DNA of 64,000 bases from positions 1-64,000 of the forward strand of contig NZ_ARQM01000018.1 of assembly GCF_000385135.1 (NCBI RefSeq). Reading direction: 5' to 3'. The notes beneath the pieces are model-generated. The model had not been told where the DNA came from. It saw only the letters and a program-made list of their open reading frames with translations, and did no database searches. A program made the position numbers and the translations under genes. Source of the stretch: Promicromonospora sukumoe 327MFSha3.1. Its GTDB lineage: Bacteria; Actinomycetota; Actinomycetes; Actinomycetales; Cellulomonadaceae. The stretch's first letter is position 1, and every line of letters starts with the position of its first letter. Positions 27,821 to 56,049 of this stretch are shown here, one piece after another.

Positions 27821-27874
27821 GAGGCCTAAGTTTCTCGTCTTTGGACAGGTCCAAAGACGAGAAACTTAGGCCTC
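27821..27874. repeat. GAGGCC palindrome, copy a
   Basis: Perfect 26-bp inverted arms around a 2-nt loop (AG). The outer part is GAGGCCTAAGTTTCTC; the inner part (GTCTTTGGAC) differs from the other copies but stays self-complementary. It lies 99 bases beyond the stop of the secreted GH76 gene (27974, minus strand), where it can act as that gene's terminator. The 312-bp gap 27662-27973 contains nothing else I can support apart from short CGTCGTCG-type repeats. Confidence 0.9.
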
Positions 27875-27973: not shown

Positions 27974-29908
27974 TCAGGACGTCTCGTACGTCGCCGTCAC
28001 GTGGTAGACGCCGCCGCCCCAGCCGTCGGCCGGGAACGCGTCCGAGACGCGGATGTACGCGGCGTTGTCGTCGCCGAGGTGCTCGGTCAGGTCGAGCGTG
28101 TGCTCGGCCCGGTTGGAGCCGTCCCGGATCTGCTCGTCCTCCGTGAGCACCGTGGTCCAGGACTCGCCGTCCGGCCCCACCTCGACGACGTACTGGTTGT
28201 CGATCTCCAGGGTCGCCTGGGCCGACGTCGTCCCCTCGGGGAACGGGAACCGGTAGACGAACGCGCTCTCGCCGTCGGCGTAGCGGCTACCGCCGCCGCT
28301 GAAACCGGACCCGCCGGCGTCCCAGAGCCACGGGATCTCCTCGGGCGAGCCGGCCGCGAAGTCGACGACGCCCGCGACCAGCACCTCGGCGCGCGCGGTG
28401 TAGGTCAGGCCCGAGCGGGCGGTGACGGTGACGCTCACCGGGTAGCTGCCGTCGGCGGTGCCGACGGGGACCTGTACGTCCACGGGCACGGTCGCCCGCG
28501 CCGGGTCGGCGTGCCCGGTCGGGCTCAGCCGCAACGCCCGGTCCGCCGTCACCTTCCAGCCGCGCGGGCCGGAGGTCCGTACGGTCACGGGCAGTTTCTC
28601 CGGGCGGGCCGACGTCGCCGCCACCGTGACCTCCAGGCCGACCCGCGTGGCCGTGCCGGAGGCGGGCAGCACCGCCACCACCGCCGGGGCGGCGGCCGCC
28701 GAGAGGGTGCGACGCGGCTGCTCCTGCGGCACGTCGGCGATCAGCGCGCTCAGGGCGCTGGCCTGGGTGCGCCAGTCGAACACGTTGGGCTGGGTGTCGG
28801 TCGCTCCGGCCCAGCGCAGGCCGAGCCGGCCGACGACGTCGCGGTCGTTCGCCCAGATGGAGTCCGCCTGGTCGGCGACAAACTGCTGGTAGGCGGGCTC
28901 GCCCGTCGTGTCGGCCAGCTCCATCAGGTAGCGCGCGAAGATGCCCTTGAACTGCTTCTGGTTGTCGTCGCAGCTGCGGCCGGCGGCCTCGCACCACTCG
29001 GTCAGCACGCCGTCCTTGACGAGCACGTCGGACTCCAGCGCGGAGTCGGCCAGGTACCGGGCCTGCTCCAGGAGCTCCGGGTCGCCGGTGGCCCGCCACA
29101 GCTCCAGCGCCGCGCCGATGCCGAGGCCCTGGTTGTAGGTCCACACGGTGTCGTTGTTGCTGGAGCAGTCGTCGCGGAGCCCGTCGTGGACCAGCCCGTC
29201 GGAGTTGATCATGCCGCTGGCCACGTACCAGTCCCACGCCTCCTGGGAACGGTCCAGCCAGAGGGTGTCACCGGGCAGCCGGTTGTGCAGCTCTGCGGTC
29301 AGCCGGATCCACTGCCCGTTGGTGACGGCGTTCTTGTAGGTGCGCTCCTCGTTCCACCAGATGCCGCCGCCGCAGGTGCTGGTGTCCCAGAACTCGTTCA
29401 TGAACTCGCCGATGGTGACGGCCATGTCGAGGTACTTCTGATCGCCGGTCAGGTCGTACGCGGTGACCCAGTTGAGCCCCCACCAGCCCGAGTCGTCGAT
29501 GGCGCGGCTGGTGAAGTTGCCGTAGATCTCGTCGGTGGACCGCTCCCCCGCCGGGAACGGGCCCTTGTTCGTCTCGAAGCTGTGGTCCAGCTCGTCGAGG
29601 TAGCGCTGGTCGCCCGTGCGCTTCATGTAGTCGCCGATGGTCTGCAGCGCGACGGCGGAGTTCCACCAGCTCGACGCGAACCACGCCTTCTCCGGGTCGT
29701 AGGAGTCCATCAGCACGTCGGCGGACACCCGGGCGTCGGCCACGGCGGTGGCCGCGTCGACGTCGTCCGCCGGTGTCGCCGCGGACACCGGTACGGAAGC
29801 GGCGGGTTCGGTGGGTGGTGGCCCGGCGTGCGCCAGGGCGACCGGTTGCAGGCCGGCGATCACGGCAACGGCCAGCAGGACACGTCGGGTACGACGGAAC
29901 ATCGACAT
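27974..29908 (-). CDS. Secreted glycoside hydrolase family 76 (endo-alpha-1,6-mannanase-like)
   Basis: A 644-residue exported enzyme expected to cut the alpha-1,6-mannan backbone of fungal or actinobacterial mannans. Signal peptide about 1-28 (basic FRRTRR, hydrophobic core, cleavage after AHA). The GH76 (alpha/alpha)6 domain spans about 50-380 with the paired catalytic aspartates Asp138-Asp139 in FTSRAIDDSGWWGLNW and the family segment TYNQGLGIGAALELW. A NEW3/NPCBM-associated domain (about 430-530) and a C-terminal galactose-binding-like beta sandwich (about 540-644) follow. ATG 29908 has a strong GGGGGAGGAG ahead. The gene is the secreted arm of the alpha-mannan system at 32.7-39.4 kb. Confidence 0.93.
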   Translation of the reverse strand: MSMFRRTRRVLLAVAVIAGLQPVALAHAGPPPTEPAASVPVSAATPADDVDAATAVADARVSADVLMDSYDPEKAWFASSWWNSAVALQTIGDYMKRTGDQRYLDELDHSFETNKGPFPAGERSTDEIYGNFTSRAIDDSGWWGLNWVTAYDLTGDQKYLDMAVTIGEFMNEFWDTSTCGGGIWWNEERTYKNAVTNGQWIRLTAELHNRLPGDTLWLDRSQEAWDWYVASGMINSDGLVHDGLRDDCSSNNDTVWTYNQGLGIGAALELWRATGDPELLEQARYLADSALESDVLVKDGVLTEWCEAAGRSCDDNQKQFKGIFARYLMELADTTGEPAYQQFVADQADSIWANDRDVVGRLGLRWAGATDTQPNVFDWRTQASALSALIADVPQEQPRRTLSAAAAPAVVAVLPASGTATRVGLEVTVAATSARPEKLPVTVRTSGPRGWKVTADRALRLSPTGHADPARATVPVDVQVPVGTADGSYPVSVTVTARSGLTYTARAEVLVAGVVDFAAGSPEEIPWLWDAGGSGFSGGGSRYADGESAFVYRFPFPEGTTSAQATLEIDNQYVVEVGPDGESWTTVLTEDEQIRDGSNRAEHTLDLTEHLGDDNAAYIRVSDAFPADGWGGGVYHVTATYETS

Positions 29909-30102
29909 CGATGGGCTCCTCCCCCTGGGCGCGGCGTTGCCCCCAGGCGCTCGTGATTTCACCCAAAACCTACCGGAGAAATGGCAGCAATACACCTATT
30001 CGACGCAGACCAACCGGGTCACGTCGGGATGCGGGTGCCCGCGCCGGTCCTGCGCGCCGCGGGGGTCCGCGCGCGGCCCGCCGCGGGGCCGGCGCGCGAA
30101 GT

Positions 30103-30169
30103 GCGCTTCTACCCAGCCATTAGGCCGGGGATCGGCGTGATTTCGGGCCTAATGACTGGGTAGAAGCGC
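30103..30169. terminator. Long hairpin downstream of the MarR gene
   Basis: 24-nt arms (GCGCTTCTACCCAG...TTAGGCC) are complementary except for one C/T position and are separated by 19 bases. The hairpin begins 8 bases beyond the MarR stop codon (minus strand) and also lies upstream of the secreted GH76 gene. It is similar in scale to the GAGGCC palindromes but differs in sequence, sharing only GGCCTAA at one end. Confidence 0.65.
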
Positions 30170-30176
30170 GCTCTCG

Positions 30177-41162: not shown

Positions 41163-41924
41163 ATGACGCGTGAGCTTCCCCTGGACGGCCGGACCGCCGT
41201 CGTCACCGGCGCCGCCCGGGGCATCGGCGAGGCCACGGCCCGGCGGCTCGCCGAGGACGGCGCCGGCGTCTTCCTCGTGGACGTCTCCCCCACCGTGCTG
41301 GACCTGCGGGACGAGCTGCGCGCCGCCGGGTTCCGGGCGTCCGCCTCGGTGATGGACGTTGCCGACGAGGCTGCCTGGGCCGATGCCGTCGCTGCCTGCC
41401 GCGCGGAGCTGGGCCGGCCGCAGATCCTGGTGAACAACGCCTATGCGGGCCGCATCGCCACGCTGGAGGACACCCCGCCGGAGAGCTGGGACCGCCAGAT
41501 CCGGGTGACGCTCACGGGCGCCTACCTGGCGACGCGCGCGCTGCTGCCCGACCTGTCGGCGTCGGGCAACGGTGCGGTGGTGATGGTGTCCTCGGTGCAC
41601 GCGCACTTCGGGCTGCCGGGCCGGGCCGCGTACGCGTCGGCCAAGGCGGGGATGACGGGCCTGGCCCGCCAGCTCGCGGCCGAGTACGGCCCGGCGGTGC
41701 GCGTGAACAGCGTGCTGCCGGGGCCGGTGCTCACGCCGCACTGGGACGGCGTCGGCGAGGCCGAGCGGGCCGGCGCGGCCGCGGCGACGGCGCTGGGACG
41801 GCTGGGTGAGTCGTCGGAGGTGGCCGACGCGATCGTCTACCTCTGTTCCGACCGCGCGTCGTTCATCACGGGCGTGGAGCTCAACGTCGACGGCGGCTGG
41901 AGCGTCACCAAGGAATCAGTGTGA
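41163..41924 (+). CDS. SDR family oxidoreductase
   Basis: A classical 253-residue SDR: VVTGAARGIGEATARRL, NNAYAGRIAT (a variant of NNAG), VVMVSSVHAHFG (catalytic Ser), YASAKAGMTGLARQL (Tyr/Lys), and VELNVDGGWSV at the end. FLVDVSP after the second strand carries the Asp that favours NAD+. Given the coupling with an aldehyde dehydrogenase, a plausible job is oxidation of an alcohol to the aldehyde that the partner then oxidises (inference). Confidence 0.92.
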   Translation: MTRELPLDGRTAVVTGAARGIGEATARRLAEDGAGVFLVDVSPTVLDLRDELRAAGFRASASVMDVADEAAWADAVAACRAELGRPQILVNNAYAGRIATLEDTPPESWDRQIRVTLTGAYLATRALLPDLSASGNGAVVMVSSVHAHFGLPGRAAYASAKAGMTGLARQLAAEYGPAVRVNSVLPGPVLTPHWDGVGEAERAGAAAATALGRLGESSEVADAIVYLCSDRASFITGVELNVDGGWSVTKESV

Positions 41925-41956
41925 TCCCGGAGCTGTCGGCGTCCTATGGTGTGCCG

Positions 41957-42394
41957 ATGACGACAGTGCAGCCGGTCCAGATCACCTTCGACTGTGCCAG
42001 CCCCGAGCGCGTGGGCCGGTTCTGGTGCGAGGCGCTGGGGTACGTCCCGCCGGACCCGACGGAGGACGGCTTCGCCACGTGGGAGGAGTACACCCTCTCG
42101 CTGCCCGAGGAGAAGCGGGACTCGTGGTTCGGCGCGAGCGACCCGAACGGGGTGGGCCCGCGGCTGTTCTTCCAGCGCGTGCCCGAGGGCAAGGTCGTCA
42201 AGAACCGGGTGCACCTCGACGTCAAGGTCGGCCGGGGCCTGGTGGGCGACGAGCGCCTGGCCGCCCTGGAGTCCCACGCCGTCCGCCTGGAGGCGATCGG
42301 CGCGACGCGCGGGGTGCTGCTGCTGGCCGACGGCGAGAACGAGTCCTGCCAGAACATGCAGGACGTCGAGGGCAACGAGTTCTGCCTGGACTGA
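41957..42394 (+). CDS. VOC/glyoxalase-like domain protein
   Basis: A single-domain protein of 145 residues: QITFDCASPERVGRFWCEALGY opens the fold, LFFQRVPEGKVVKNRVHLDVKV is the central strand-turn-strand with the His, and MQDVEGNEFCLD ends it, the pattern of the Glyoxalase-like (Glo_EDI) proteins common in actinobacteria. Function unknown; resistance-type or dioxygenase-like roles are both seen in the superfamily. An alternative GTG at 41921 would overlap the SDR stop (GTGA) and couple the two genes, but the conserved domain begins at ATG 41957. Confidence 0.85.
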   Translation: MTTVQPVQITFDCASPERVGRFWCEALGYVPPDPTEDGFATWEEYTLSLPEEKRDSWFGASDPNGVGPRLFFQRVPEGKVVKNRVHLDVKVGRGLVGDERLAALESHAVRLEAIGATRGVLLLADGENESCQNMQDVEGNEFCLD

Positions 42395-42411
42395 CGCCCG
42401 AGGCTCCCTGG

Positions 42412-42430
42412 CCGGCGCAAACTGCCGACC
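42412..42430 (+). repeat. Single unit of the CAAACTGCCGA repeat family
   Basis: CCGGCGCAAACTGCCGACC matches the arrayed units at 49.8 and 54.0 kb (CCGGGCAAACTGCCGA). It lies 15 bases before the GAGGCC palindrome at 42446. Confidence 0.6.
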
Positions 42431-42445
42431 ACCGCTGAACCCCCT

Positions 42446-42509
42446 CCTTTGAGGCCTAAGTTTCTTCGCTTTGCGGCGCCGCAAAGCGAAGAAACTTAGG
42501 CCTCAAAGG
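42446..42509. repeat. GAGGCC palindrome, copy b (perfect 64-bp palindrome)
   Basis: Two 32-nt arms (CCTTTGAGGCCTAAGTTTC...TTTGCGGC) are exactly complementary with no loop bases at all, centred on GGCGCC. The element lies between the convergent VOC gene (ends 42394) and the GH78 gene (ends 42532), where it can terminate transcription from both sides. Confidence 0.93.
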
Positions 42510-42531
42510 GGACGAGCCGGCCGCGCCCCCC

Positions 42532-45360
<2,829 letters not shown>

Positions 45361-45372
45361 CGGTGGCCCCTT

Positions 45373-46200
45373 TCAGCCCTTGACCGCGCCGGACGTCATG
45401 CCGGCCACGATCTGGCGGTTGAAGAAGATGTACATGACCAGCGGCGGCACCGTGATCAGGAGGATGTCCATGAACAGCAGGTTGAACTGGCTGACCATCT
45501 GGCTCTGGAAGTTGTAGAGCGTGAGCTGCACGGTCGCGTTCTCGTCGCCGGGCAGGAAGTACAGCGGGTTGGTGAAGTCGTTGAACACGTTGACGGCCTG
45601 CACCACGACGATCGTGATGATCACCGGCCGCAGCAGCGGCAGGATGACGGCGAAGAACAGCCGCAGGGGCCCGGCGCCGTCGATGATCGCGGCCTCGTCG
45701 AGCTCGCGCGGGATGGTCGCCACGAACGCCCGGAACAGCAGGACGCAGAACGAGAGCCCGAACGTCGCCTCGATGAGGATCAGGCCGGGCATGGTCTTGA
45801 ACAGCCCGGTCTGCTGCAGCACCCAGATGGTCGGCACGACGGCGGGCGGCACGATGAGCCCCGCCAGCACGAAGAAGTTCACCACCGGGTTGAACCGCGA
45901 GCGCCGCCGCTGGAGCAGGTACCCGACCATGGCCGCGAGCACGACCATCACGGTCACGCTCACGACCGTGAGCACGGTCGAGTTGAGGAAGGCCCGCACC
46001 ACGATGCCGTCGCGGGTGGTGAGCACCTCCGTCAGGTTCTCGACGAAGGCCCACTGGGTGGGCCAGGAGAACTCCAGCCGCGACGCCTCCGACGCGTCCT
46101 TGGACGCCGTCACGAAGATGAACCCGAACGGCACCAGGAACACCACCACCGACACGGCGATGGCCACGATGCCCGTGGCCCAGGAACCGGCGCGCCTCAT
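45373..46200 (-). CDS. ABC transporter permease, MalG-type (CUT1)
   Basis: A 275-residue membrane subunit with about six helices; the EAA loop reads ELDEAAIIDGAGPLRLFFAVILPLLRPVI, and the protein ends IFFNRQIVAGMTSGAVKG, the standard MalG-type tail. Its ATG overlaps the stop of the partner permease (ATGA at 46197-46200). Together with 46197-47108 and the lipoprotein 47128-48444 it forms an importer probably specific for rhamnosides, because GH78 follows 12 bases later. Confidence 0.94.
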   Translation of the reverse strand: MRRAGSWATGIVAIAVSVVVFLVPFGFIFVTASKDASEASRLEFSWPTQWAFVENLTEVLTTRDGIVVRAFLNSTVLTVVSVTVMVVLAAMVGYLLQRRRSRFNPVVNFFVLAGLIVPPAVVPTIWVLQQTGLFKTMPGLILIEATFGLSFCVLLFRAFVATIPRELDEAAIIDGAGPLRLFFAVILPLLRPVIITIVVVQAVNVFNDFTNPLYFLPGDENATVQLTLYNFQSQMVSQFNLLFMDILLITVPPLVMYIFFNRQIVAGMTSGAVKG

Positions 46201-47108
46201 CGGTCGACCTCCTTGCGGTTCAGCAGCAGGGAGACCGGCACCATGATCGCCGTGACCACGAGGAACAGGATCACGTTGCCCGCGGTGGACAGCCCGTAGA
46301 ACCCGGCCTGGTACTGCTTGTAGATGACGGACCCGATGACGTCGCTGGTGAACCCGGGGCCGCCGCCCGTGGTGGCCCAGATGAGGTCGAACGACCGCAG
46401 GCCGCCGATCAGGGACAGGATGACCACGGTGGCCGTCGCGGGCTGGACCAGCGGCAGCGTGATGGAGCGGAACTGCTGCCACCGGCCCGCGCCGTCGACC
46501 CTCGCCGCCTCGTAGTACTCCTGCGGGATCGCGACGATGCCCGCGATGTAGATGAGTGTCGCGATGCCGAGCCCCTTCCAGACGTCGACGGCCGCGATGG
46601 TCAGGAGCGCCTGGTTCGGATCGGTGAACCAGCCCGGCCCCTCGATCCCGAACGTGGCGAGCATCGTGTTGACCACGCCGTCGAACGGGTCGAGCAGCGC
46701 CTTGAACGTGATGCCGACGCCGATGGTCGAGACGAGCACCGGGAAGAACACCACCGACCGCAGGTACCCGCGGCCCACGAGCTGTGAGGTGAGCAGCACC
46801 GCGAGCGCCAGCCCGAGCACCACCTTGGCGGCCGAGGTCACGAACCCGTAGATCAGCGTGTTCACGAATCCCTGCGAGAGCTGGGGCTCGGAGAAGAACT
46901 GGACGAAGTTGTCCAGGCCGATGAACTCGGTGTCGAACAGGGTCCAGCGCGTGAGGCTGAACCAGAACGACGCGAACGTGGGCACCGCGAAGAAGACCAG
47001 GTAGAGCACTCCGGCCGGCAGGTAGAACCACGAGGGGTAGACGCTGCGCTGGGTGGCCGAGGTGGAGCCCGCCGTCCGACGGCGGCGGGCGGGCCGCACC
47101 TCGGTCAT
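46197..47108 (-). CDS. ABC transporter permease, MalF-type (CUT1)
   Basis: A 303-residue membrane protein: an Arg-rich cytoplasmic N-terminus, then six helices (WFYLPAGVLYLVFFAVPTFASFWF first) and the EAA loop EYYEAARVDGAGRWQQFRSITLPLV; LRSFDLIWATTGGGPGFTSDV is the usual MalF segment. Two starts are possible, ATG 47108 and ATG 47120; neither has a strong ribosome binding site, and the first is only 19 bases beyond the stop of the binding-protein gene. Confidence 0.93.
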   Translation of the reverse strand: MTEVRPARRRRTAGSTSATQRSVYPSWFYLPAGVLYLVFFAVPTFASFWFSLTRWTLFDTEFIGLDNFVQFFSEPQLSQGFVNTLIYGFVTSAAKVVLGLALAVLLTSQLVGRGYLRSVVFFPVLVSTIGVGITFKALLDPFDGVVNTMLATFGIEGPGWFTDPNQALLTIAAVDVWKGLGIATLIYIAGIVAIPQEYYEAARVDGAGRWQQFRSITLPLVQPATATVVILSLIGGLRSFDLIWATTGGGPGFTSDVIGSVIYKQYQAGFYGLSTAGNVILFLVVTAIMVPVSLLLNRKEVDR

Positions 47109-47127
47109 GGTCGCCACCATCGGCGAC

Positions 47128-48444
47128 CTACCAGCCCTCGAGGCCGAGCTGGCGGGCCTGGTTCTCGACGTCCTGGTCGTAGAACTCGGCCGCCTCCTCG
47201 GCGGTCTTGATGCCGGAGCCGACCTCGACGGTGACCTTCTCCAGGTTCGGGCCCTTGACCGGGGAGCTGAACTCCAGGGCGTTCGCGGCCTTGCCCTCGT
47301 CGAAGTACGCCTGGATGTCGTCCAGGAGCGGCGGGGCGGTGTCCAGCGCCTCGCACGTGCCCGCGTAGGGGCCGGCGGGCGGCAGCAGCTCGTTCTGGAT
47401 CTCGCAGCCGGCCTCGCTGTTCGCGAACGCGACGAGCTCCTTGGCGGCCTCCAGCTCGGCGCCCTCGGTCGACCTCGGCACGTAGAGCGCGTTGGGCTGC
47501 CAGATCGTCGCCTGGGTGTTGGCGGCATCCTCGGCGGGCAGCGCGAAGAAGCCGATGTCGTCGACGGCGTCCGGGGTGTTCTGCAGGATCGTCTGGATGA
47601 CGTTGGAGAGCATCGGGTAGTGCGCGCCCTCGCCCTCGGCGACCATGCGGGCGCCGTCCTGGAACGCTGCGGACGGGAAGTCCTCGTTGAAGTAGCCGGC
47701 CTCGGCGACCTCCTGCTGGTGCTGGAAGCCCAGCAGGGCCGGCTCCTCGGCGTACGAGCGCTGGTGCGCCGTGTACTGGTCGGCCCACTCGGGGTCGACG
47801 GCCGCGACGTTGGCGAAGTCGCCCAGGACGAAGAGCTGGCTGGTCCACGTCTCGCCGTAGGTCTGGATGACCGGGGCGACGCCGTCGGCCTCGGCGGCGA
47901 TCGTCGCGTTGTTCGCCATGAACTCGTCCCAGGTCTGCGGGATCTCCAGGCCGAGCTCCTCGTAGAGCGGCTTGTTGTAGACGATGCCGCCCGCGAACGA
48001 GGCGCCCAGCGGCGCGCCGTACAGCCCGTTGTCGGTGCTGACGACGGGGGTGAACTCCTCGGTGAGGGAGCCGACCCACTCCTGGTCGCTCAGATCCACG
48101 AGGGTCGAGTCCGGGTTGAGGGCCTGGAGCAGCGAGCCCGAGTTGTAGTAGAAGACGTCGGCCATCTCGCCGGTGGACAGCCGGGTCTTGACCAGGTTGT
48201 CGCCCTCGGTGCCGCCGGGGCGGATCTCGACGCTGACCTTGACGTCGGGGTGCTCTTCCTCGAAGGCGGCGGCCAGGGCCTCCGCGGTCTCCGGGTTGGG
48301 GGCGTCGTTCGAGGTGAGGAAGGTGATCTCGGTGGTGCCGTCACCTCCGCCGGACGCGGCGCAGCCGGTCAGGGCTCCGCCGGTCACGGTGAGGACGGCT
48401 GCGGCCGCGAGGACCTTGCGGTGGGTCGAAAATGCACGGGACAT
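47128..48444 (-). CDS. ABC transporter sugar-binding lipoprotein (CUT1), probably rhamnoside-specific
   Basis: A 438-residue extracellular binding protein. Lipobox LTGC (VTGGALTGCAAS) at about residues 25-28; the mature part opens TEITFLTSNDAPNPETAEALAAAFEEEHPDVKV. Segments DVFYYNSGSLLQALNP, LYGAPLGASFAGGIVYNKPLYEELGL and PTWDEF-like IPQTWDEFMAN are typical. It is the first gene of the operon (binding protein, two permeases, GH78). The ribosome binding site AGGAGG lies 10 bases ahead, and two LacI-like operators lie between it and the divergent regulator. Confidence 0.94.
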   Translation of the reverse strand: MSRAFSTHRKVLAAAAVLTVTGGALTGCAASGGGDGTTEITFLTSNDAPNPETAEALAAAFEEEHPDVKVSVEIRPGGTEGDNLVKTRLSTGEMADVFYYNSGSLLQALNPDSTLVDLSDQEWVGSLTEEFTPVVSTDNGLYGAPLGASFAGGIVYNKPLYEELGLEIPQTWDEFMANNATIAAEADGVAPVIQTYGETWTSQLFVLGDFANVAAVDPEWADQYTAHQRSYAEEPALLGFQHQQEVAEAGYFNEDFPSAAFQDGARMVAEGEGAHYPMLSNVIQTILQNTPDAVDDIGFFALPAEDAANTQATIWQPNALYVPRSTEGAELEAAKELVAFANSEAGCEIQNELLPPAGPYAGTCEALDTAPPLLDDIQAYFDEGKAANALEFSSPVKGPNLEKVTVEVGSGIKTAEEAAEFYDQDVENQARQLGLEGW

Positions 48445-48481
48445 CTCTCTACCTCCTTGTAGAGACGGATGGGACGATGGC

Positions 48482-48499
48482 GTGTAGAGCGATCTACAC
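48482..48499. promoter_or_regulatory. LacI-type operator O1 of the rhamnoside locus
   Basis: GTGTAGAGCGATCTACAC has perfect 7-bp arms (GTGTAGA/TCTACAC) around GCGA. It lies 38 bases upstream of the binding-protein start. A half-site TTGTAGAGA is found nearer that gene at about 48458. Confidence 0.78.
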
Positions 48500-48551
48500 T
48501 CGCACCGATGAATCCTTTCAGTGGGAGCACGCTAGCGGGGCGCCATTTCTG

Positions 48552-48569
48552 GTGTCAACCGATCTACAC
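48552..48569. promoter_or_regulatory. LacI-type operator O2 of the rhamnoside locus
   Basis: GTGTCAACCGATCTACAC shares its right half (CGATCTACAC) with O1 and the outer GTGT of the left half. It is 70 bases from O1 and 19 bases ahead of the LacI gene, so it could serve autoregulation or DNA looping. Confidence 0.65.
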
Positions 48570-48587
48570 GGGCAGGATGGCACCACG

Positions 48588-49634
48588 ATGAGCACCGAAC
48601 CGACGCGCCGCCCGCGGCCCTCGACCATCCAGGACGTGGCCCGTGAGGCCGGCGTCTCCCGGGCCGCGGTGTCCAAGGTGATCCGCAACGCCTACGGCGT
48701 CAGCGACCACATGCGGGCCCAGGTCACCGCCGCGATCGAGCGCCTGGAGTACCGGCCGCGCGTGGCCGCCCGCGCCATGCGCGGGGCGAGCTTCACGCTC
48801 GGGTTCGAGATCCCGCAGGTGGGCAACGACTTCCTGACGATGATCGTCGACGGCGCCACGGAGGCGCTCATGAGCACGCCGTACCAGATGATCATCGCGC
48901 CGCTCGGGCGGGACCAGAAGGGCGACGTCGCGATCAACAGCCTCGCCGACCGCCAGGTCGACGGCATCGTCGCCATCTCGCCGCGCGTGGACCCAGCCTG
49001 GCTCGAACGCGTCGCCGAGCGCACGCCGCTGGTGATGATCGGACGGCACGACCGCTCCGACCGCTACGACACGATCACCGGCGACGACCGCTCCGGCGCC
49101 GAGCAGGTCATGTCGCACCTGCTCGGCCTCGGCCACCGCCGCATCACGCACCTGACGATCCACCCGTCGCGGCCGGAGCCGCCGTGGGCGGGGCAGGCGG
49201 GCGCCGAGCCGCACGTGCTGCGCACCGCCGTCTACCGCGAGCGCATGACGGCGGCCGGGCTGTCGCCGCAGGTGGTGCACACGCTGTTCGACGGCTCCGA
49301 GGCGCACGCGGCCACGCTTGGTCTGCTGGCCTCCCCCGACCGCCCGACGGCGATCTTCGCGGGCAACGACACCCTGGCGATCGGTGTGCTCAGCGCCGTC
49401 GCCGAGGCCGGGCTGGACGCGCGCGACGTGTCGGTGGTCGGGTACGACGACGTGCCGATCGCCCGGCACCCGCTCGTCGGGCTCAGCAGCGTGGACCAGA
49501 GCGGCATCACGCTGGGGCGCGAGGCGGTGCGACTGCTGCTGGAACGCCTGGAGGGGCGCACGGAGGCATTGCGGTACGAGGCGGAGGCGGTGCTGCGGGT
49601 GCGAAGGTCGAGCGGGGTGGGGCGGGAGGGGTGA
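48588..49634 (+). CDS. LacI family transcriptional regulator of the rhamnoside operon
   Basis: A 348-residue repressor. The N-terminal HTH reads TIQDVAREAGVSRAAVSKVIRN with the hinge helix region YRPRVAARAMRG, and the sugar-sensing domain follows (LGFEIPQVGNDFLTMIVDGATEAL, RQVDGIVAISPRV, TGDDRSGAEQVMSHLLGLGHRRITHL, AIFAGNDTLAIGVLSAVAEAG, VSVVGYDDVPIARHPLVGLSSVDQ). It is divergent from the ABC-GH78 operon and should bind the two GTGT..CGATCTACAC operators. ATG 48588 directly precedes the HTH; an upstream start would run through the operators. Confidence 0.95.
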   Translation: MSTEPTRRPRPSTIQDVAREAGVSRAAVSKVIRNAYGVSDHMRAQVTAAIERLEYRPRVAARAMRGASFTLGFEIPQVGNDFLTMIVDGATEALMSTPYQMIIAPLGRDQKGDVAINSLADRQVDGIVAISPRVDPAWLERVAERTPLVMIGRHDRSDRYDTITGDDRSGAEQVMSHLLGLGHRRITHLTIHPSRPEPPWAGQAGAEPHVLRTAVYRERMTAAGLSPQVVHTLFDGSEAHAATLGLLASPDRPTAIFAGNDTLAIGVLSAVAEAGLDARDVSVVGYDDVPIARHPLVGLSSVDQSGITLGREAVRLLLERLEGRTEALRYEAEAVLRVRRSSGVGREG

Positions 49635-49740
49635 GGGCTGAGTGCTGAGTGCTGGGGTGGAGCCGGGGGCGGGGGCGGGTGCGGGGCCAGGAGCGGGGGC
49701 GGGGGCGGGTAGCGCTGGTTTCGGCAGGCCGCCGCGCGGC

Positions 49741-49864
49741 ATTCGGCACGTTGCCCGGAGCTTCGGCAGTTGGCACTGAGATCGGTCCAGGCCTGTGCCG
49801 ATCTCAATGCCAACTGCCGAGTCTGTGGGGCAAACTGCCGAGTCCGCGAGGCAGACTGCCGACC
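49741..49864. repeat. Inverted array 1 of CAAACTGCCGA repeats around a hairpin
   Basis: Centre: arms TCGGCAGTTGGCACTGAG.. (49763-49785) and its complement (49798-49820) pair over 23 bp with one mismatch; the 12-nt loop contains CAGGCCTG. To the right, units of about 21 nt follow (CAACTGCCGAGTCTGTGG, CAAACTGCCGAGTCCGCG, CAGACTGCCGA); to the left, inverted units (CGGCACGTTGCCCGGAGC). It lies in the 395-bp gap between the LacI gene and the convergent sigma-factor gene, 40 bases before palindrome c. No protein is convincing in any frame. The stretch 49635-49740 before it is only a low-complexity G-rich run. Confidence 0.8.
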
Positions 49865-49904
49865 GGCCTCGGGTCAGGGCAGTAGCGCTTAGCCCATCGC
49901 TCCT

Positions 49905-49962
49905 TTGAGGCCTAAGTTTCTTCGCTTTGAGGGATCGCAAAGCGAAGAAACTTAGGCCTCAA
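49905..49962. repeat. GAGGCC palindrome, copy c
   Basis: 25-nt arms (TTGAGGCCTAAGTTTCTTCG..CTTTG) with an 8-nt loop (AGGGATCG). It sits between convergent genes (LacI ends at 49634, sigma factor ends at 50030). Confidence 0.9.
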
Positions 49963-50029
49963 GGGGGTGGGACGACGACGCCCCGGATCCTGGCCGAGCG
50001 CGACGTCTCGTCCCCGCGGCTGGTTGTCG

Positions 50030-51277
50030 TCAGGGCAGCAGGACCGTGCGGATCGCGGTGATCAGGCCGTCCGCGACGAGCACCCGGATCAGTGCGACAG
50101 GCGCGCCGTCGTGCGTGGCGACGAGCGCCATCCCGTCGTCCAGGAGCAGCGGGGCGAGGGTCCAGCCCGACGTCGGACCCAGGTAGCGCAGGGATCCGGC
50201 AGCGACCCGCTCGGCGCCGACGTCGAACCCGACGCGCACGCCGCGGAGCGTCGCCCAGCCCGAGACCTCGGGGTGCAGGATCCGCACCAGGGCCCCGAGG
50301 TCTCCCCCGGCGCACGCCGCGATGAAGGCGTCCGTGACGCGCTGCAGCTGGGGGTCGGCGCGTGGTCCGGGCGGTGCGGTCGGTGAGGGAGCGGACGCCG
50401 TCGTCGGCCCCGATGCGCGGATCGCCCGCCGGGCCCGGCTGGCGAGCTGGCGGCACGCGGCCGGGGTGCGGCCGACCGTCTCCGCGACGCTCTCGAAGGG
50501 GATCCCGAAGACGTCGTGCAGCAGGAACGCGGCGCGCTCCCCCGCCGTCAGCCGGTCGAGCACGACGGACAGCGCGCCCCGGATCTCGTCGTCCAGGGTC
50601 ACGCGGTCCGCCGGGTCCGGGGACGACGCCGGACCCGGGCCGGGGCTGCCCGCGACACCGAAGTCCCACGCCGTCGGGTCCTGCGGCGCGGACAGGCGGC
50701 GGTGCGCCGAGCCGATCCGGTCCAACGCGAGCCGCCGCACGGCCACGACGAGCCAGCCGCGCAGGTCCCGGATCGCGGCGACGTCCTGGGTCGCGAGGCG
50801 GGCGAAGGCGTCCTGCACGACGTCCTCGGCCTCGGCCGGGTCGGCCAGGATGCGGCGCGCGACGGCCAGCAGGTAGGCGCGGTCGGCGCGAGACGCGGCG
50901 GTGACTCGGGCGGCGTCGGCAGGTTCGGCGGCGGCGTCGGCGTCGGCGTCGGCAGGTTCGGCGGCGGCGGCGTGTTCGCCCACGTTCCGCTCGACGTCGG
51001 CGTGCTCGACGGCGGCGTCTCCGGCCTCAGCCTGCTCGACGTCGGCATCTCCGGCCTCAGCCTGCTCGACGTCGGCATCTCCGGCCTCAGCCTGCTCGAC
51101 GTCGGCATCTCCGGCCTCAGCCTGCCCGGCGTCCGCGTGCTCGACGTCGGCATGTTCGGCGGCGACTCGCTCGGCGCCGGCGCGCTCGGCCGCCGCGAGG
51201 CGGGCGTCGTCGGCTCCCGCCGTCTTCCCCGCGCACTCGTCGGCGCCCTGCCCGGGGTCACGTCCTAGTTCGCTCAT
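50030..51277 (-). CDS. ECF41/SigJ-type RNA polymerase sigma factor with SnoaL-like tail and repetitive N-terminal extension
   Basis: A 415-residue sigma factor, about 100 longer than usual. Residues 1-125 are a low-complexity Ala/Glu/Asp extension with tandem decapeptides (VEQAEAGDAD) at about 50-90. Region 2 follows (RAYLLAVARRILADPAEAEDVVQDAFARL), then region 4 (LTAGERAAFLLHDVFGIPFESVAETVGRTPAACRQLASRARRAI) and a C-terminal SnoaL-like domain (LQRVTDAFIAACAGGDLGALVRILHPEVSGW), the feature of ECF41 factors, in which this domain regulates activity instead of an anti-sigma factor. Divergent from doxX with a shared palindromic promoter that fits its own consensus, so it should autoregulate. Confidence 0.92.
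   Translation of the reverse strand: MSELGRDPGQGADECAGKTAGADDARLAAAERAGAERVAAEHADVEHADAGQAEAGDADVEQAEAGDADVEQAEAGDADVEQAEAGDAAVEHADVERNVGEHAAAAEPADADADAAAEPADAARVTAASRADRAYLLAVARRILADPAEAEDVVQDAFARLATQDVAAIRDLRGWLVVAVRRLALDRIGSAHRRLSAPQDPTAWDFGVAGSPGPGPASSPDPADRVTLDDEIRGALSVVLDRLTAGERAAFLLHDVFGIPFESVAETVGRTPAACRQLASRARRAIRASGPTTASAPSPTAPPGPRADPQLQRVTDAFIAACAGGDLGALVRILHPEVSGWATLRGVRVGFDVGAERVAAGSLRYLGPTSGWTLAPLLLDDGMALVATHDGAPVALIRVLVADGLITAIRTVLLP
51010..51130 (-). repeat. 30-bp tandem repeat inside the sigma-factor gene
   Basis: About four copies of a 30-bp unit (plus strand GACGTCGGCATCTCCGGC followed by CTCAGCCTGCTC), three of them identical. It encodes the 10-residue repeat VEQAEAGDAD in the N-terminal extension. 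A repeat of 30 bp keeps the reading frame if copies are gained or lost. Confidence 0.9.
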
Positions 51278-51285
51278 GCCTGCAC

Positions 51286-51340
51286 GACGATCGGCCGCCC
51301 CGCGATGTGACGGCGTCACACTCGCGGGCGACCGTTCGTC
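51286..51340. promoter_or_regulatory. Symmetrical divergent ECF41-type promoters
   Basis: TGTGACGGCGTCACA (51306-51320) is a palindrome that presents CGTCACA on both strands. To the right, exactly 16 bases lead to CGTC (51337-51340), ahead of doxX. To the left on the minus strand, exactly 16 bases lead to CGTC (51289-51286), ahead of the sigma-factor start at 51277. This matches the reported ECF41 promoter pattern (TGTCACA, about 16, CGTC) in both directions. The sigma-factor transcript would have almost no leader. Confidence 0.75.
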
Positions 51341-51390
51341 CTGTCCGCACCGGCCGGCAGCCCGCCGTCCGACGGACCCGAAGGAGCATC

Positions 51391-51987
51391 ATGCTCACCA
51401 CCACGCTGTGGGCGGCGCAGGCCGTCCTCGCCCTGTTCTTCCTGTTCGCGGCCCTGCCCAAGATCGCCGGCCGCGGCATCGACCGCTGGGCGGGGTTCGA
51501 CGACCTGCCCCGCTCGATCGTCGTCGTGACCGGCGTCGCGGAGCTCGTGGCCCCGTTCGCGCTCGTCCTGCCGATGCTGCTCGGCACCCTCGAGTGGACG
51601 ACGCCGCTCGCCGCCGCCGGACTCGCCGTCGTGACCCTGATGGCCAGCGGGTTCCACGTGCGGGCCGGCGAGTGGCTGCCCGCCCTGGAGACGGCGCTGT
51701 GGGCCGCGCTCGCCGGGTCCGTCGCCGTCGGGCGCTGGGACCTGCTGGCGACCGGGCCGCACCTGGGCGCCGACCTGCTGGTTCCCGTGATCGGCCTGGT
51801 CACGGCCGCGCTGGCGGTCAACCTCTTCCTGATCTTCCGGGCCCCGGCGCCGTCCCGCGCAGCGGCCGCACATAGGCCGGCCCCGACCCCCGCGTCTCCG
51901 GCTCGGCCGACGTCGGCGCAGCCGACGCAACCGGCGCAGCCGACGTCGGCCCAGCCGGCGCAGCCCGTGGAATCTGGACCGCGCTGA
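51391..51987 (+). CDS. DoxX family membrane protein
   Basis: A 198-residue protein with four helices in the DoxX pattern (LWAAQAVLALFFLFAALPKIAG, SIVVVTGVAELVAPFALVLPML, PLAAAGLAVVTLMASGFHV, LLVPVIGLVTAALAVNLFLIF) and a Pro/Ala/Thr/Gln-rich C-terminal tail with PTSAQP repeats. DoxX proteins are linked to redox or thiol stress responses; the exact role is unsettled. The divergent ECF41-type sigma factor and the fitting promoter at 51313-51340 make it the probable target gene. Strong GAAGGAG before ATG 51391. Confidence 0.9.
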   Translation: MLTTTLWAAQAVLALFFLFAALPKIAGRGIDRWAGFDDLPRSIVVVTGVAELVAPFALVLPMLLGTLEWTTPLAAAGLAVVTLMASGFHVRAGEWLPALETALWAALAGSVAVGRWDLLATGPHLGADLLVPVIGLVTAALAVNLFLIFRAPAPSRAAAAHRPAPTPASPARPTSAQPTQPAQPTSAQPAQPVESGPR

Positions 51988-51997
51988 ACCCATCCCC

Positions 51998-52058
51998 TTC
52001 GAAGCCTAAGTTTCTCCTCTTTGACGCCGTCCAAAGCGAAGAAACTTAGGCCTCGAAA
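51998..52058. repeat. GAGGCC palindrome, copy d (degenerate)
   Basis: The right arm (AAAGCGAAGAAACTTAGG..) is standard, but the left arm has changes (GAAGCCTAAG for GAGGCCTAAG, TTTCTCCTC for TTTCTTCGC), so several pairs are lost. It lies 10 bases after the doxX stop and 100 bases before copy e: two elements in tandem in one convergent gap (51988-52223). Confidence 0.8.
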
Positions 52059-52158
52059 GGGATGGTCAGAACCGCAACGGCGGCGGTCCGACCGACCGCC
52101 TCAGCCGGTTGCCGACGACGGCGTCCGCGTCCGCGACCAGCCCCGATCCGTCGTCACC

Positions 52159-52218
52159 TTCGAGGCCTAAGTTTCTTCGCTTTGGGGCGCCTGAAAGCGA
52201 AGAAACTTAGGCCTCGAA
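52159..52218. repeat. GAGGCC palindrome, copy e
   Basis: 25-nt perfect arms (TTCGAGGCCTAAGTTTCTTC..GCTTT) around a 10-nt loop (GGGGCGCCTG). It ends 5 bases before the stop codon of the convergent DMT transporter gene (52224) and probably terminates it. Confidence 0.9.
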
Positions 52219-52223
52219 AGGGA

Positions 52224-53093
52224 CTACGCCGAGACCAGCGCGATCGCCACGCCCGCACCGAGCAGGCCTAGGACCTGGCTGCGCACCAGCCGCTCGCGGA
52301 GGAAGGCGATCGCCAGCACCACGGGGATGGCCGGGTACATCGCGGCCAGGACCGTCGTCGTCGCCAGGAGGCCCTGGTTGACGGCGACCCAGTACAGGAT
52401 CGTCGCCACCGTGCCGACACCGCCCGCGGCCAGTGCCGCCCAGGTCGCCTTCCGGGGCAGCCGGAGGGGTGCGCCCAGGGCGGCCGCCAGAGCGACGATC
52501 ACGACGACGGAGACCCCGCGGCTCAGCACGATCGGCCACATGCCGGCCTCGGGCGGGATCCGCGCGACGGCCACGAAGTGGGCCGCGATCCCCAGGCCCG
52601 CGACGAGCGCGTCGGGCACCCCCGCGACCATGCGCCGCCCGCGCCGGCCGCCCCCCGCAGGGCCCGCGCCGACGCCGTCGGCCGGCTGCCCCCGGGAGAC
52701 CAGCCAGATCGCCACCACGGCGACGGCGGAGCCGGCGTACGCAGCCGCCGACGGCCGCTCGCCGAGCAGCAGCACGCCCACCAGGACCGGCAGGGCGAGT
52801 CCCGCGACGTCGCTGACGGGCGCGACGACGCTCATCGGCCCGCGGCTCATCGCCCGGTACAGGTACGCGACGCCGACGCCGGTCCCCACGCCCGACAGCA
52901 CTCCCCAGAGCAGCGGAGCCAGCGCCGGTTGGCCCGCCGGCACGCAGACGGCGATGACCACGCTCAGCGCCGTACCGCCGACCTGCGCCACGCCCGCCAC
53001 GGTCACCCCGTTCCAGCTCCGGGAGAGGACGCCGCTGACGAAGTGCGTCAGGCCGAAGCACAGCGCGGACAGCAGTGCGAGGGTCTCGGCCAT
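52224..53093 (-). CDS. EamA/DMT superfamily transporter
   Basis: A 289-residue inner-membrane protein with ten predicted helices in two EamA repeats, separated by a basic Gly-rich loop (GPAGGGRRGRRMVAG). First repeat MAETLALLSALCFGLTHFVSGVLSRSW ... SRGPMSVVAPVSDVAGLALPVLVGVLLLGERPS; second repeat ALVAGLGIAAHFVAVARI ... LATTTVLAAMYPAIPVVLAIAFLRERLVRSQVLGLLGAGVAIAL. Metabolite export is the common role; substrate unknown. It lies 50 bases after the MarR gene on the same strand and is probably its target. Confidence 0.93.
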   Translation of the reverse strand: MAETLALLSALCFGLTHFVSGVLSRSWNGVTVAGVAQVGGTALSVVIAVCVPAGQPALAPLLWGVLSGVGTGVGVAYLYRAMSRGPMSVVAPVSDVAGLALPVLVGVLLLGERPSAAAYAGSAVAVVAIWLVSRGQPADGVGAGPAGGGRRGRRMVAGVPDALVAGLGIAAHFVAVARIPPEAGMWPIVLSRGVSVVVIVALAAALGAPLRLPRKATWAALAAGGVGTVATILYWVAVNQGLLATTTVLAAMYPAIPVVLAIAFLRERLVRSQVLGLLGAGVAIALVSA

Positions 53094-53143
53094 CGGGTCA
53101 CACCTCCGTCTGCGCGCCGCTCATGACGCGTCGTCGGGTCGGC

Positions 53144-53680
53144 CTAGACGTCGTCCGCGTTCGCCCGTGCCTCCAGGTCTGCCGCGCCGACCGGGCAGTG
53201 CGTGGCCTTGCCGTCGCCGCACGAGTCGCGGTCGCAGAGCCGGCAGAGGTAGAACGTGTCCGGCTTCTCGTCGTAGGCCGCGACCAGCAGCTTCTCCAGG
53301 AGTCCGGCGAGCGTGTCCCGCTCGTCGTCGTCGAGCGACGAGAGCAGGCCGGCCACCCGGTCGTCCCGGGTCGTCAGGACGGCCCAGGCCACCCGTCGCC
53401 CCTCCTCGGTCGGATGGACGGCGACCCACTTGCCGATCGACTCGCGCCGCTCGACCAGCCCGCGGGTCTCCAGGGAGTCGACCATGCGGGTCGAGGCCGA
53501 CTGGGTCAGGCCGATGCGCCGCCCGAGCTCCGTCGCCGAGAGACCCGGGGCTCGCGACAGCGCGATCAGCGCCGCCATCCCGCTCGGCCCGGTGGCGGCC
53601 GCGGCGGTGGTCGCCCCCAGCAGCAGGTCGGTCACCGCCAGGGACGCCGCACCCAACAGGTTTGCCGTCCTATCATGCAT
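53144..53680 (-). CDS. MarR family regulator with a C-terminal cysteine cluster
   Basis: A 178-residue MarR-type repressor: GPSGMAALIALSRAPGLSATELGRRIGLTQSASTRMVDSLETRGLVERR holds the winged helix. The C-terminus has four cysteines (Cys146, 149, 154, 162 in FYLCRLCDRDSC and ATHCPVG), which could bind zinc or sense oxidants. A perfect 17-bp dyad overlaps its start codon, so it probably represses itself and the DMT transporter downstream. Confidence 0.92.
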   Translation of the reverse strand: MHDRTANLLGAASLAVTDLLLGATTAAAATGPSGMAALIALSRAPGLSATELGRRIGLTQSASTRMVDSLETRGLVERRESIGKWVAVHPTEEGRRVAWAVLTTRDDRVAGLLSSLDDDERDTLAGLLEKLLVAAYDEKPDTFYLCRLCDRDSCGDGKATHCPVGAADLEARANADDV

Positions 53681-53701
53681 GACTCATGCATATCACGTGA
53701 T
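53675..53701. promoter_or_regulatory. Two adjacent palindromes over the MarR start codon
   Basis: ATGCATGACTCATGCAT (53675-53691) has 8-bp arms around one base and includes the start codon at 53680. ATCACGTGAT (53692-53701) is a perfect 10-bp palindrome immediately after it. The MarR dimer may bind one or both. Confidence 0.65.
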
Positions 53702-53795
53702 CCACGTCACCACAACGGCACCTCGCGGCGGACGCCGAACCGGCCGACAGACCACCGACGGCGTCCGCATGCGGGAGGGGCCGGGGCCGCCGCCC

Positions 53796-53859
53796 CCTTC
53801 GAGGCCTAAGTTTCTTCGCTTTGGGTCGGCGGAAAGCGAAGAAACTTAGGCCTCGAAGG
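53796..53859. repeat. GAGGCC palindrome, copy f
   Basis: 27-nt perfect arms (CCTTCGAGGCCTAAGTTTCT..) around a 10-nt loop (GGGTCGGCGG). Unlike most copies it lies between divergent genes (MarR start 53680, GNAT start 54157), 21 bases from repeat array 2, so a terminator role is not obvious here. Confidence 0.9.
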
Positions 53860-53880
53860 TGACGAGGGGGCCGCTCTGAG

Positions 53881-54112
53881 GTTCGGCAGTTGGCCTGGAC
53901 CTTCGGCAGTTCGCCCGGAGCTTCGGCAGTTGGCATCGAGGTCGGCACAGGGCTGAGCCGACCTCGATGCCAACTGCCGAGTCCGCCGGGCAAACTGCCG
54001 AAGCTCCGGGCAGACTGCTGAGTCCGCCAGGCAAACTGCCGAGTCGACCGGGCAAACTGCCGAGTCCGCCAGGCAAACTGCCGAACCTGCCGGGCAAACT
54101 GCCGACTTGGGC
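53881..54112. repeat. Inverted array 2 of CAAACTGCCGA repeats around a hairpin
   Basis: Centre: perfect 24-bp arms at 53923-53946 and 53957-53980 (TCGGCAGTTGGCATCGAG..) with a 10-nt loop. To the right are about seven units of 20-21 nt (CAACTGCCGAGTCCGCCGGG, then CAAACTGCCGAAGCTCCGGG, CAGACTGCTGAGTCCGCC, and so on to 54112). To the left are two inverted units (TTCGGCAGTTGGCCTGGACC, TTCGGCAGTTCGCCCGGAGC). The centre closely matches that of array 1. It fills the 476-bp gap 53681-54156 with copy f and the MarR dyads. The units are 21 nt, so frames read as heptads, but no credible gene is present. Confidence 0.85.
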
Positions 54113-54156
54113 AGCACCGACGGAATGCCCGTCGCCCCCGGAAAGTTGGTGATGAC

Positions 54157-54897
54157 GTGAGCCTCCTGACCGACGCGACGCCCGACGACGCGGCACGCAC
54201 CACAGCCCCCGACCACACCGTGCTCGACGACGCCGCCTGGTCGTCGCTCAGCGGGGAGCACGCCCACTTCGCCGAGGGCGGCGACCTCGTGCGCCGCTAC
54301 CCCGTGGACGTCTCGCCGTTCGCCGCCGTCCGCACGTGGGACGACCCCCGCGTCTGGGCCGCGATCATCGACCTGGTCGGGTACGACGCCGACTTCCCCG
54401 CCCCGCCCGAGTCCGTCGCGCTGCCGGCCGGCTGGACCCGCGGCGAGGTGTTCGGCGGCGTGCAGCTCGTCGAGACCGAGCGGCTGGTCGGCCGGCCCGA
54501 CGACGAGGCGGTCGTGCTGGGTGCCGCCGACGTGCCCGAGATGATGGACCTCGTGGCCCGCGCCAAGCCCGGCCCGTTCCTGCCCCGGACCTACGAGATG
54601 GGCCGGTACGTGGGCATCCGGCGCGACGGCGTGCTCGCGGCCATGGCGGGCGAGCGGCTGCGGCCGGCCGGCTGGACCGAGATCAGCGCCGTCGCCACCG
54701 ACGAGCGCTTCCGCGGCCAGGGGCTGGCCTCGCGCCTCGTGCTCGACGTCGTGCACCACGTCCGCGAGCGCGGCGCCCGGGCCATGATGCACGCCGCGGC
54801 GAGCAACACGAACGCCATCCGGCTCTACGAGAGCCTCGGGTTCGAGATCCGCCGCCGCAACGCGTTCGGGATGGTGCACACGCCGGCCGGCGCCTGA
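54157..54897 (+). CDS. GNAT family N-acetyltransferase (FR47-like)
   Basis: A 246-residue acetyltransferase. The C-terminal catalytic core reads TYEMGRYVGIRRDGVLAAMAGERL, WTEISAVATDERFRGQGLASRLVLDVV (acetyl-CoA loop RGQGLA), and MMHAAASNTNAIRLYESLGFEIRRR. The N-terminal part is a substrate-side domain (VLDDAAWSSLSGEHAHFAEG ... RRYPVDVSPFAAV). Proteins of this type are annotated as FR47-like; the substrate is unknown. GTG 54157 has only a weak ribosome binding site (AAAGTTGG). Confidence 0.9.
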   Translation: MSLLTDATPDDAARTTAPDHTVLDDAAWSSLSGEHAHFAEGGDLVRRYPVDVSPFAAVRTWDDPRVWAAIIDLVGYDADFPAPPESVALPAGWTRGEVFGGVQLVETERLVGRPDDEAVVLGAADVPEMMDLVARAKPGPFLPRTYEMGRYVGIRRDGVLAAMAGERLRPAGWTEISAVATDERFRGQGLASRLVLDVVHHVRERGARAMMHAAASNTNAIRLYESLGFEIRRRNAFGMVHTPAGA

Positions 54898-55999: not shown

Positions 56000-56049
56000 C
56001 ACGTGTCAGACGTACAGATCACCGGAGTGACCTGTACGTCTGACACGTG
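56000..56049. terminator. Long hairpin downstream of the glycerophosphodiesterase gene
   Basis: 18-bp perfect arms (CACGTGTCAGACGTACAG and its complement); the loop itself contains TCAC/GTGA, so the stem reaches about 22 bp with one internal mismatch around CGGA. It lies 13 bases beyond the stop of the gene at 56063 (minus strand) and upstream of DUF808. Its sequence is unrelated to the other long palindromes here. Confidence 0.75.

Follow-up and report, generated by a model that had tools for sequence, protein, structure and literature searches.

What is a perfect 64-bp palindrome doing between the ends of two convergent genes of Promicromonospora, and what does it share with five other palindromes of the same stretch of DNA? 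We examined the whole stretch of 64,000 nucleotides (the window), which corresponds to positions 1-64000 of contig 18 of a 6.25-Mb genome in 18 contigs (G000). The original prediction offered three options for these palindromes, a mobile element, a lineage-specific terminator family, or protein or nucleoid binding sites.

Six palindromes of the window and their family

The six palindromes were all found where they had been placed, and that of copy b is indeed perfect over its 64 bp (Table 1). A search of the window with the 12-nt arm GGCCTAAGTTTC, allowing at most two mismatches, gave 12 matches when 0.87 was expected from shuffled sequences. The 74-nt stretches holding the six copies are AT-richer than their surroundings, as had been predicted, with a GC content of 0.49-0.58 versus 0.734 for the window. 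Folding of the six copies as RNA gave -38.4 to -60.6 kcal/mol (z from -7.5 to -11.6), and most of them have some 25-32 stem pairs. Copy a keeps its pairing despite a changed inner arm (TCGTC with GACGA). The outer arm does vary among the six, however, contrary to the first description: copy a deviates from TCGTC inward, and copy d carries GAAGCC and TCCTC on one side. Nor do the loops truly vary from 0 to 10 nt, all six copies measuring exactly 54 bp from GA to TC; the apparent differences in loop size come from mismatches near the tip.

Table 1. Coordinates in the window of the six palindromes and of the tip of copy b
Feature	Position	Strand	Gene context	Remarks
Copy a, 54-bp core	27821..27874	none	between two minus-strand genes: HbpS-like 27173-27661, GH76 27974-29788	
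Copy b, 64-bp palindrome	42446..42509	none	convergent gap: glyoxalase-like gene (+) / alpha-L-rhamnosidase gene (-)	54-bp core 42451-42504
Copy b, variable tip	42474..42481	none		central four letters 42476-42479
Copy c, 54-bp core	49907..49960	none	convergent gap: LacI-type regulator gene (+) / sigma-factor-like gene (-)	
Copy d, 54-bp core	52001..52054	none	same convergent gap as copy e	degenerate left arm GAAGCC..TCCTC
Copy e, 54-bp core	52162..52215	none	convergent gap with copy d: DoxX-like gene (+) / EamA transporter gene (-)	
Copy f, 54-bp core	53801..53854	none	divergent gap: MarR-like gene (-) / GNAT acetyltransferase gene (+)	

Genes were called with a codon-usage caller, and all 10 called genes checked beside the six copies had a Pfam match, while two further frames checked there, not among the called genes, had none. 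The predicted arrangement of four copies in three convergent gaps was recovered (b; c; d with e). At the Rfam gathering score the window contains a tRNA (1832-1916) alone, with no match for the palindromes.

The family extends beyond these six copies. A covariance model built on them gave 150 strand matches in G000, corresponding to 75 places or more (the best 150 of 364 candidates were scored), and a 14-nt arm with at most two mismatches gave 79 forward and 78 reverse matches, while the reversed control gave 0 and 2. One exact lone arm (contig 10, position 689713) was present among 100 of these 157 places listed; it lies inside a degenerate copy outside the 75 (L369), and lone arms were discarded as sites for an RNA acting in trans.

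The consensus in G000 is approximately tcycCTTy-GAGGCCTAAGTTTCTTCGCTTTG-N8-CAAAGCGAAGAAACTTAGGCCTC-rAAGGrga, that is, conserved arms around a variable tip of about 10 nt. The distance of 54 bp from GA to TC was found in 72 of the 75 copies of G000, in 303 of the 306 copies catalogued from 11 genomes (334 found, 28 duplicates removed) and in all 20 copies additionally retrieved from G007 and G002, a constancy that rules out loops of variable length. A general pyrimidine-purine step at the centre was rejected, since it fails in G011 (8 of 28 copies). Some junctions carry two or three copies. The spread in G000 is uneven, with 7.2 copies per Mb on contig 10, 30.4 on contig 17 and 43.8 on contig 18. 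Nineteen regions taken at round coordinates held no clear copy when 4-5 were expected from the average density, but we do not use them as evidence on density.

Location of the copies and other hairpins at gene ends

The 75 copies of G000 are distributed among convergent (41), tandem (30) and divergent (4) gaps, with none inside genes. For the 306 catalogued copies the numbers are 164 convergent, 121 tandem, 13 divergent, 4 inside called genes and 4 undetermined. Convergent gaps make up about 13% of the intergenic space (4,597 of 35,069 positions in gaps of at least 74 nt, in the sampled regions and the window). The median distance to the nearest stop was 26 nt for convergent copies (n=164), and that from the stop was 56.5 nt for tandem copies (n=92). 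Among the tandem copies of G000, G006, G010 and G011, 72 of 92 were closer to the upstream stop than to the next start. Copy f is an exception to this gene-end rule, and the four divergent copies of G000, to which it belongs, speak against a terminator.

A census that took in every kind of long hairpin, in gaps of at least 40 nt of the window and of 19 sampled regions of 20 kb, found them in 29 of the 42 convergent gaps, in 19 of the 155 tandem gaps and in a single one of the 77 divergent gaps; long hairpins therefore mark gene ends in this genome. Unclassified hairpins, mostly GC-rich, were the only ones in 28 of the 49 hairpin-bearing gaps, and the others belonged to families B to F, described below. 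In the G000 sequence covered by the analysis, a long hairpin other than a family copy was present in 7 of the 38 convergent gaps that contain a copy versus 32 of the 55 that do not (p 1.3e-4). The corresponding values were 1 of 28 versus 30 of 238 for tandem gaps, which is not significant (p 0.22), and 2 of 4 versus 1 of 141 for divergent gaps. The 54-bp family (family A) therefore appears to replace the usual hairpin in convergent gaps. In G009, where family A was not detected, a different 79-nt hairpin lies 18-96 nt past the stop of the counterpart of a neighbour gene of copy c (position taken from coordinates); the hairpin scan found none at the corresponding loci of G005 and G003.

The copies have one mark of canonical intrinsic terminators, a hairpin just past the stops (13 of 306 being divergent), and lack the other, the U-tract. 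A tract of at least four T in 8 nt accompanied at most 3 of the 83 copies of G006 and at most 1 of the 75 of G000 on any strand and at any offset tested, and a terminator consensus scan of 41500-54500 flagged none of copies b-f.

Of the three options initially offered, the terminator is the best supported, by the location of the copies, by the exclusion of other hairpins and by a covariation that ends at a four-nucleotide loop, while the marks of a mobile element that were tested were not found. We consider it probable, at roughly 0.6, that these palindromes are hairpins for termination or 3'-end formation, without a U-tract and mostly acting in both directions, which make up one family specific to the lineage. 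Whether it had started at either gene of a convergent pair or at the first gene of a tandem pair, RNA polymerase would transcribe the palindrome of 54-74 nt. Some 25-32 pairs of the RNA would then form a stem closed by a loop of 4 nt, and this hairpin would end transcription or fix the 3' end of the mRNA. We observed the location, the covariation of the fold, the hairpin exclusion in convergent gaps, the position-anchored orthologues and the switch of dialect on both arms; termination or 3'-end formation is what we infer.

The length of the stems, their position past the stops and the lack of a U-tract would equally suit a hairpin for the stabilisation or processing of mRNA 3' ends, as an exonuclease barrier or an RNase III substrate, with termination taking place elsewhere, e.g. 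by Rho. We hold this to be unlikely; the way in which copies and other long hairpins avoid each other in convergent gaps is at least as compatible with termination, although the two cannot be separated by sequence alone.

Other palindromes were observed beside family A. Family B (ACGTGTCAGAC-NNNN-CAGGTCACC) occurs at 56000-56049 of the window, L140:652-699 and L382:4606-4653, among other places. The inside of its arm varies in a paired manner, and the inner marks are 40 bp apart in each of the 19 copies, out of 20, that could be measured; 12 copies are tandem, 6 convergent, 1 inside and 1 undetermined. Family C (GAACGTAGGG..) occurs at L102:6098-6157, L118:4766-4821, L372:18978-19037 and four more places, measures 54 bp in 7 of 7 copies and is similar to 53-bp palindromes (L389, L391, L395, L398) of G247 and G260, which belong to another family of the order; several of its copies, and not others, carry GA-N7-GTT at the same offset as family A. 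Family D (TCGGCAGTTGGC) consists of 58-bp palindromes that adjoin copies c and f in the window (49763-49820 and 53923-53980), and related repeats occupy numerous places in at least 6 of the 13 genomes of the genus, among the matches listed. Palindromes like GCGCTTCTACCCAGTCATTAGGCC (family E) are located at 30100-30172 of the window, L125:4983-5067, L371:538-608 and L374:16849-16925. Family F (CGAAGTAGAAC) has very long stems (L119:1427-1496, L372:14458-14544, L386:13388-13475), all 3 in G000 being in convergent gaps, and a palindrome like it (G009, L207:1405-1483) stands at the gene end where G000 has copy c.

Arm dialects and distribution of the family

The spelling of the arms varies between species and is nearly uniform within them. 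In G000, 74 of the 75 copies have G/G at position 4 of the arms; in G006, 80 of the 83 have A/A there. The copies of the relatives were found with the model built from the window copies, which biases the search against finding A/A in G006, and the best 150 candidates per genome were scored; the model-picked copies of G006 are A/A in 62 of 65 cases. The exact-pattern scan, which supplied 44 of 46 catalogued copies in G010, 9 of 10 in G007 and 5 of 9 in G002, demands a G at position 4, and model-picked counts were therefore used for these three genomes; they gave G/G in 19 of 20, 18 of 19 and 9 of 13 copies (the other four being A/A), respectively.

G007 has its own spelling at positions 7-9, GAGGCCCGA or GAGGCCCGG on both arms of 12 of the 13 retrieved copies and GAGGCCTGA in the remaining one; its apparent identity of dialect with G000 was an artefact of the exact pattern, as the unselected copies show this spelling. 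In G011, 25 of 28 copies carry GAGACCGAG on each arm, position 5 is T/T in G012 (14/17) and G004 (11/18), and position 4 of G001 is T, C or A, symmetric in 12 of 13 copies. Further differing spellings were found in G008 (5 copies) and G003 (2 copies).

The median flank identity to G006 is 91.5% for G007 (7 pairs), 90.8% for G010 (28 pairs) and 89.3% for G000 (47 pairs), and as these closest relatives are all G/G, A/A is most simply the derived state in G006. From flanking DNA, 38 pairs of copies could be assigned to a junction common to G000 and G006. Thirteen of the pairs are anchored in position, i.e., an aligned flank lies within about 40 nt of both copies at a near-equal distance, one side each, and 12 of these 13 are G/G in G000 and A/A in G006. 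The noncoding stretch adjacent to copy b aligns with G006, where its orthologue (L187) has the arms GAGACC/GGTCTC. Tips of true G000-G006 pairs differed at a mean of 4.0 of 10 positions versus 4.63 for shuffled pairs (p 0.002), and inner arms also distinguished true from shuffled pairs (p 0.047); between G006 and G010 the tips did so (p 0.01) while the inner arms were not significant. The orthologues L120 and L297 have a common asymmetric inner arm, TCCTC versus TTCGC, though their dialects differ.

From the anchored pairs and the orthologue-like tips it follows that both arms of some copies, at the least, were altered in place. The copying process resembling gene conversion that had been suggested is thus unsupported for the arms, which shift in concert while the tips remain partly specific to the locus. 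Conversion or fresh insertion of whole copies would not have left tips nearer to the orthologue than to other copies, or the asymmetric mismatch shared by L120 and L297. Between G000 and G010 the differences per site were 0.263 in the tip, 0.013 in the outer arm and 0.333 at flank positions 8-12 (ungapped, which may be an overestimate); by these alignments the tips have drifted nearly as fast as the neighbouring noncoding DNA. The species dialects look as though the copies had been altered together where they stand, under a sequence-specific factor that reads their arms.

The model of the six copies (R1) matched 11 of the 13 genomes of the genus, G005 and G009 having no match at E 1e-6. Exact palindromes were present in 7 of 59 genomes searched, every one of the same genus, and the 55 matching stretches of the named species collection were all titled Promicromonospora, 39 of them P. 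kroppenstedtii. At E 1e-4, R1 matched 13 of 150 genomes of the family, 11 of which belong to the genus; the other 2, out of 137 outside the genus, had one weak match each. A model of all dialects then known (R2) matched 6 of 396 genomes of the order, G000 included; filters were stricter in the family and order scans, so that weak matches were lost. In G247 and G260, three hits that were measured proved to be palindromes of 53 bp; their arms are like GAACGCTGAGTTGCTCGGC, and they resemble family C of G000 (e.g. GAACGTAGGGTTGCTCGGC), while the order-level hits L394 and L396 have no apparent relation. Plasmids and phages gave no match, and viral contigs 0 stretches (exact, hence narrow, pattern). 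Outside the genus, the genomes searched contain weak or partial relatives alone, and the palindromes of G247 and G260 may be homologous to the family.

Numerous near-identical dispersed copies centred on one genus, with two or three at several junctions, would also be expected of a REP- or MITE-like palindrome, mobile but not autonomous, that had spread through the genus and whose presence after genes is merely tolerated. REP elements of other phyla (GTAG/CGTC) are, in the portion of the source available, likewise dispersed intergenic palindromes that favour convergent and unidirectional gaps near 3' ends, and they include subfamilies with alternative complementary stem letters (PMC3733652). 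Their stems have 5-13 bp as given there (PMC3733652), versus about 25-32 pairs in the Promicromonospora palindrome, which unlike REPs has a constant 54-bp unit and arm dialects by species. The consensus in 11 genomes had no GTAG/CGTC tag within the 7 nt beside the core. G000, the one Promicromonospora genome tested, gave 0 matches to PF01797 (Y1_Tnp), a domain found in 5 of 14 control genomes, which argues against RAYT-driven mobility. The 80 combinations of offset and length tested per genome gave no target-site duplication signal (best uncorrected p 0.047 for the 75 copies of G000 and 0.017 for the 83 of G006). Position-anchored copies change dialect in place, and an inert repeat should not keep other hairpins out of convergent gaps. 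We find this explanation rather doubtful.

Pairing of the arms and a possible arm-reading factor

Covariation in G000 was significant at pairs 9, 16-18 and 23-25, and at pair 0 just outside the core, but not at pairs 26-27, which leaves a loop of 4 nt, the letters 42476-42479 in copy b (the covariation p-values of all four genomes are uncorrected for the number of positions). G010, the nearest relative of G000, has the same boundary, with covariation at pairs 23-25 and none at 26-27. Pair 24 covaries in G006, where 23 and 25 are not significant and 26-27 do not covary, and pairs 23 and 24 covary in G011, where 25 and 26-27 do not. The compensatory change first proposed from copy a is real and family-wide.

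A duplex-DNA site for a dimeric chromosome or nucleoid protein would explain two conserved half-sites at a fixed spacing, a recognition sequence specific to the species and the uneven density between contigs 18 and 10. It is highly unlikely, as neither covariation at sequence-free positions ending at a 4-nt loop nor a location after genes would be expected of it. The dialects do make a trans-acting binding factor, as in the initial option of protein sites, more likely.

In the 27 G000-G010 pairs 58 changes were one-sided, 8 were paired and 5 were double changes of another kind; the 38 G000-G006 pairs gave 83, 68 and 13, respectively, the position-4 switch accounting for much of the paired changes. 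One-sided changes coming first and paired changes later fit mutation followed by compensation better than a constant correction from arm to arm. The tip was inverted in 4 of 27 G000-G010 pairs versus 0.26 expected (p 0.0005), and not significantly so in the G000-G006 (1/38) and G006-G010 (1/25) pairs. Tips look inverted between close species in L107/L162, L083/L109, L064/L128 and L071/L139, as though the arms had been exchanged. A mutational origin of the symmetry, by template switching between hairpin arms and not by selection, is improbable: arm-mediated exchange does seem to occur, judging from the G000-G010 inversions, and paired changes are numerous between G000 and G006, but one-sided changes predominate in the closer pair G000-G010, inversion is not significant in the two other comparisons, and correction alone cannot drive nearly all copies to the same new letter.

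On the transcript strand of tandem copies, G.U mispairs numbered 106 versus 69 C.A in all. Counted by element, the values were 44 versus 27 over all species (p 0.057) and 14 versus 3 in G000 (p 0.013), while the arms alone had no bias (21 versus 19, nine-genome set). Convergent copies, a control in which no strand is favoured, were uneven in the opposite way (93 G.U versus 117 C.A). The G.U excess leans weakly to selection on the RNA.

As terminator or 3'-end hairpins, the palindromes come close to the U-less structured 3' ends of Streptomyces clavuligerus, where 353 of 535 highly structured ends were found to lack the tract (PMC8269248). Such 'HS-U-lack', possibly I-shaped, bidirectional ends of high-GC actinobacteria have in common with them a very stable stem, a short loop, no U-tract and relevance to both strands; the available text does not describe those ends as one dispersed sequence family, whereas tens of Promicromonospora copies share an arm (PMC8269248). 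Repeated intergenic stem-loops, some suggested to be terminators, are also known among the stem-loop sequence families of bacterial genomes, the high-GC genomes being Corynebacterium diphtheriae and two mycobacteria alone in the part of the table covered (PMC2267715). A genome-wide repeat spelled by species is found in the DNA uptake sequences of Neisseriaceae, whose dialects are tied to the receptor protein ComP and whose inverted pairs associate with terminators (PMC3630211). Uptake sequences are, as far as that text extends, short words, searched for there as 10-mers, that can reach thousands of copies and occur within genes too (PMC3630211), unlike a 54-bp palindrome at 75 or more places in 6.25 Mb with 4 of 306 copies inside called genes. 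The literature searched, with most subscription papers outside it, gave no description of such a family in Promicromonospora, and the combination of a constant-length gene-end hairpin with species arm dialects did not turn up there.

Terminators normally need no shared arm sequence, which speaks against that reading, and the intrinsic terminators of bacteria are commonly regarded as depending on their fold and not on a common stem sequence. The arm sequence of this family, beyond the fold, is kept largely uniform within a species and differs between species as a dialect, and both features would come most simply from a putative trans-acting factor reading the arms. The concerted arms point to such a factor, the simplest driver we can name, more weakly than the other evidence points to termination. 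Tentatively, and with the odds rather against it, a dedicated sequence-specific factor, protein or RNA, may read the arms in order to form mRNA 3' ends, with a specificity that varies by species and nearly all target hairpins following in place on both arms.

If this is true, Promicromonospora would end its transcripts, or form their 3' ends, by a system that has species dialects and that may belong to a wider group of fixed-length actinobacterial palindromes. The near-uniform arm spelling, shifting in concert, would suggest that mRNA 3' ends involve a recognition step so far overlooked, and dispersed elements could evolve together without conversion of whole copies. The family offers ready natural variants with which these proposals may be tested.
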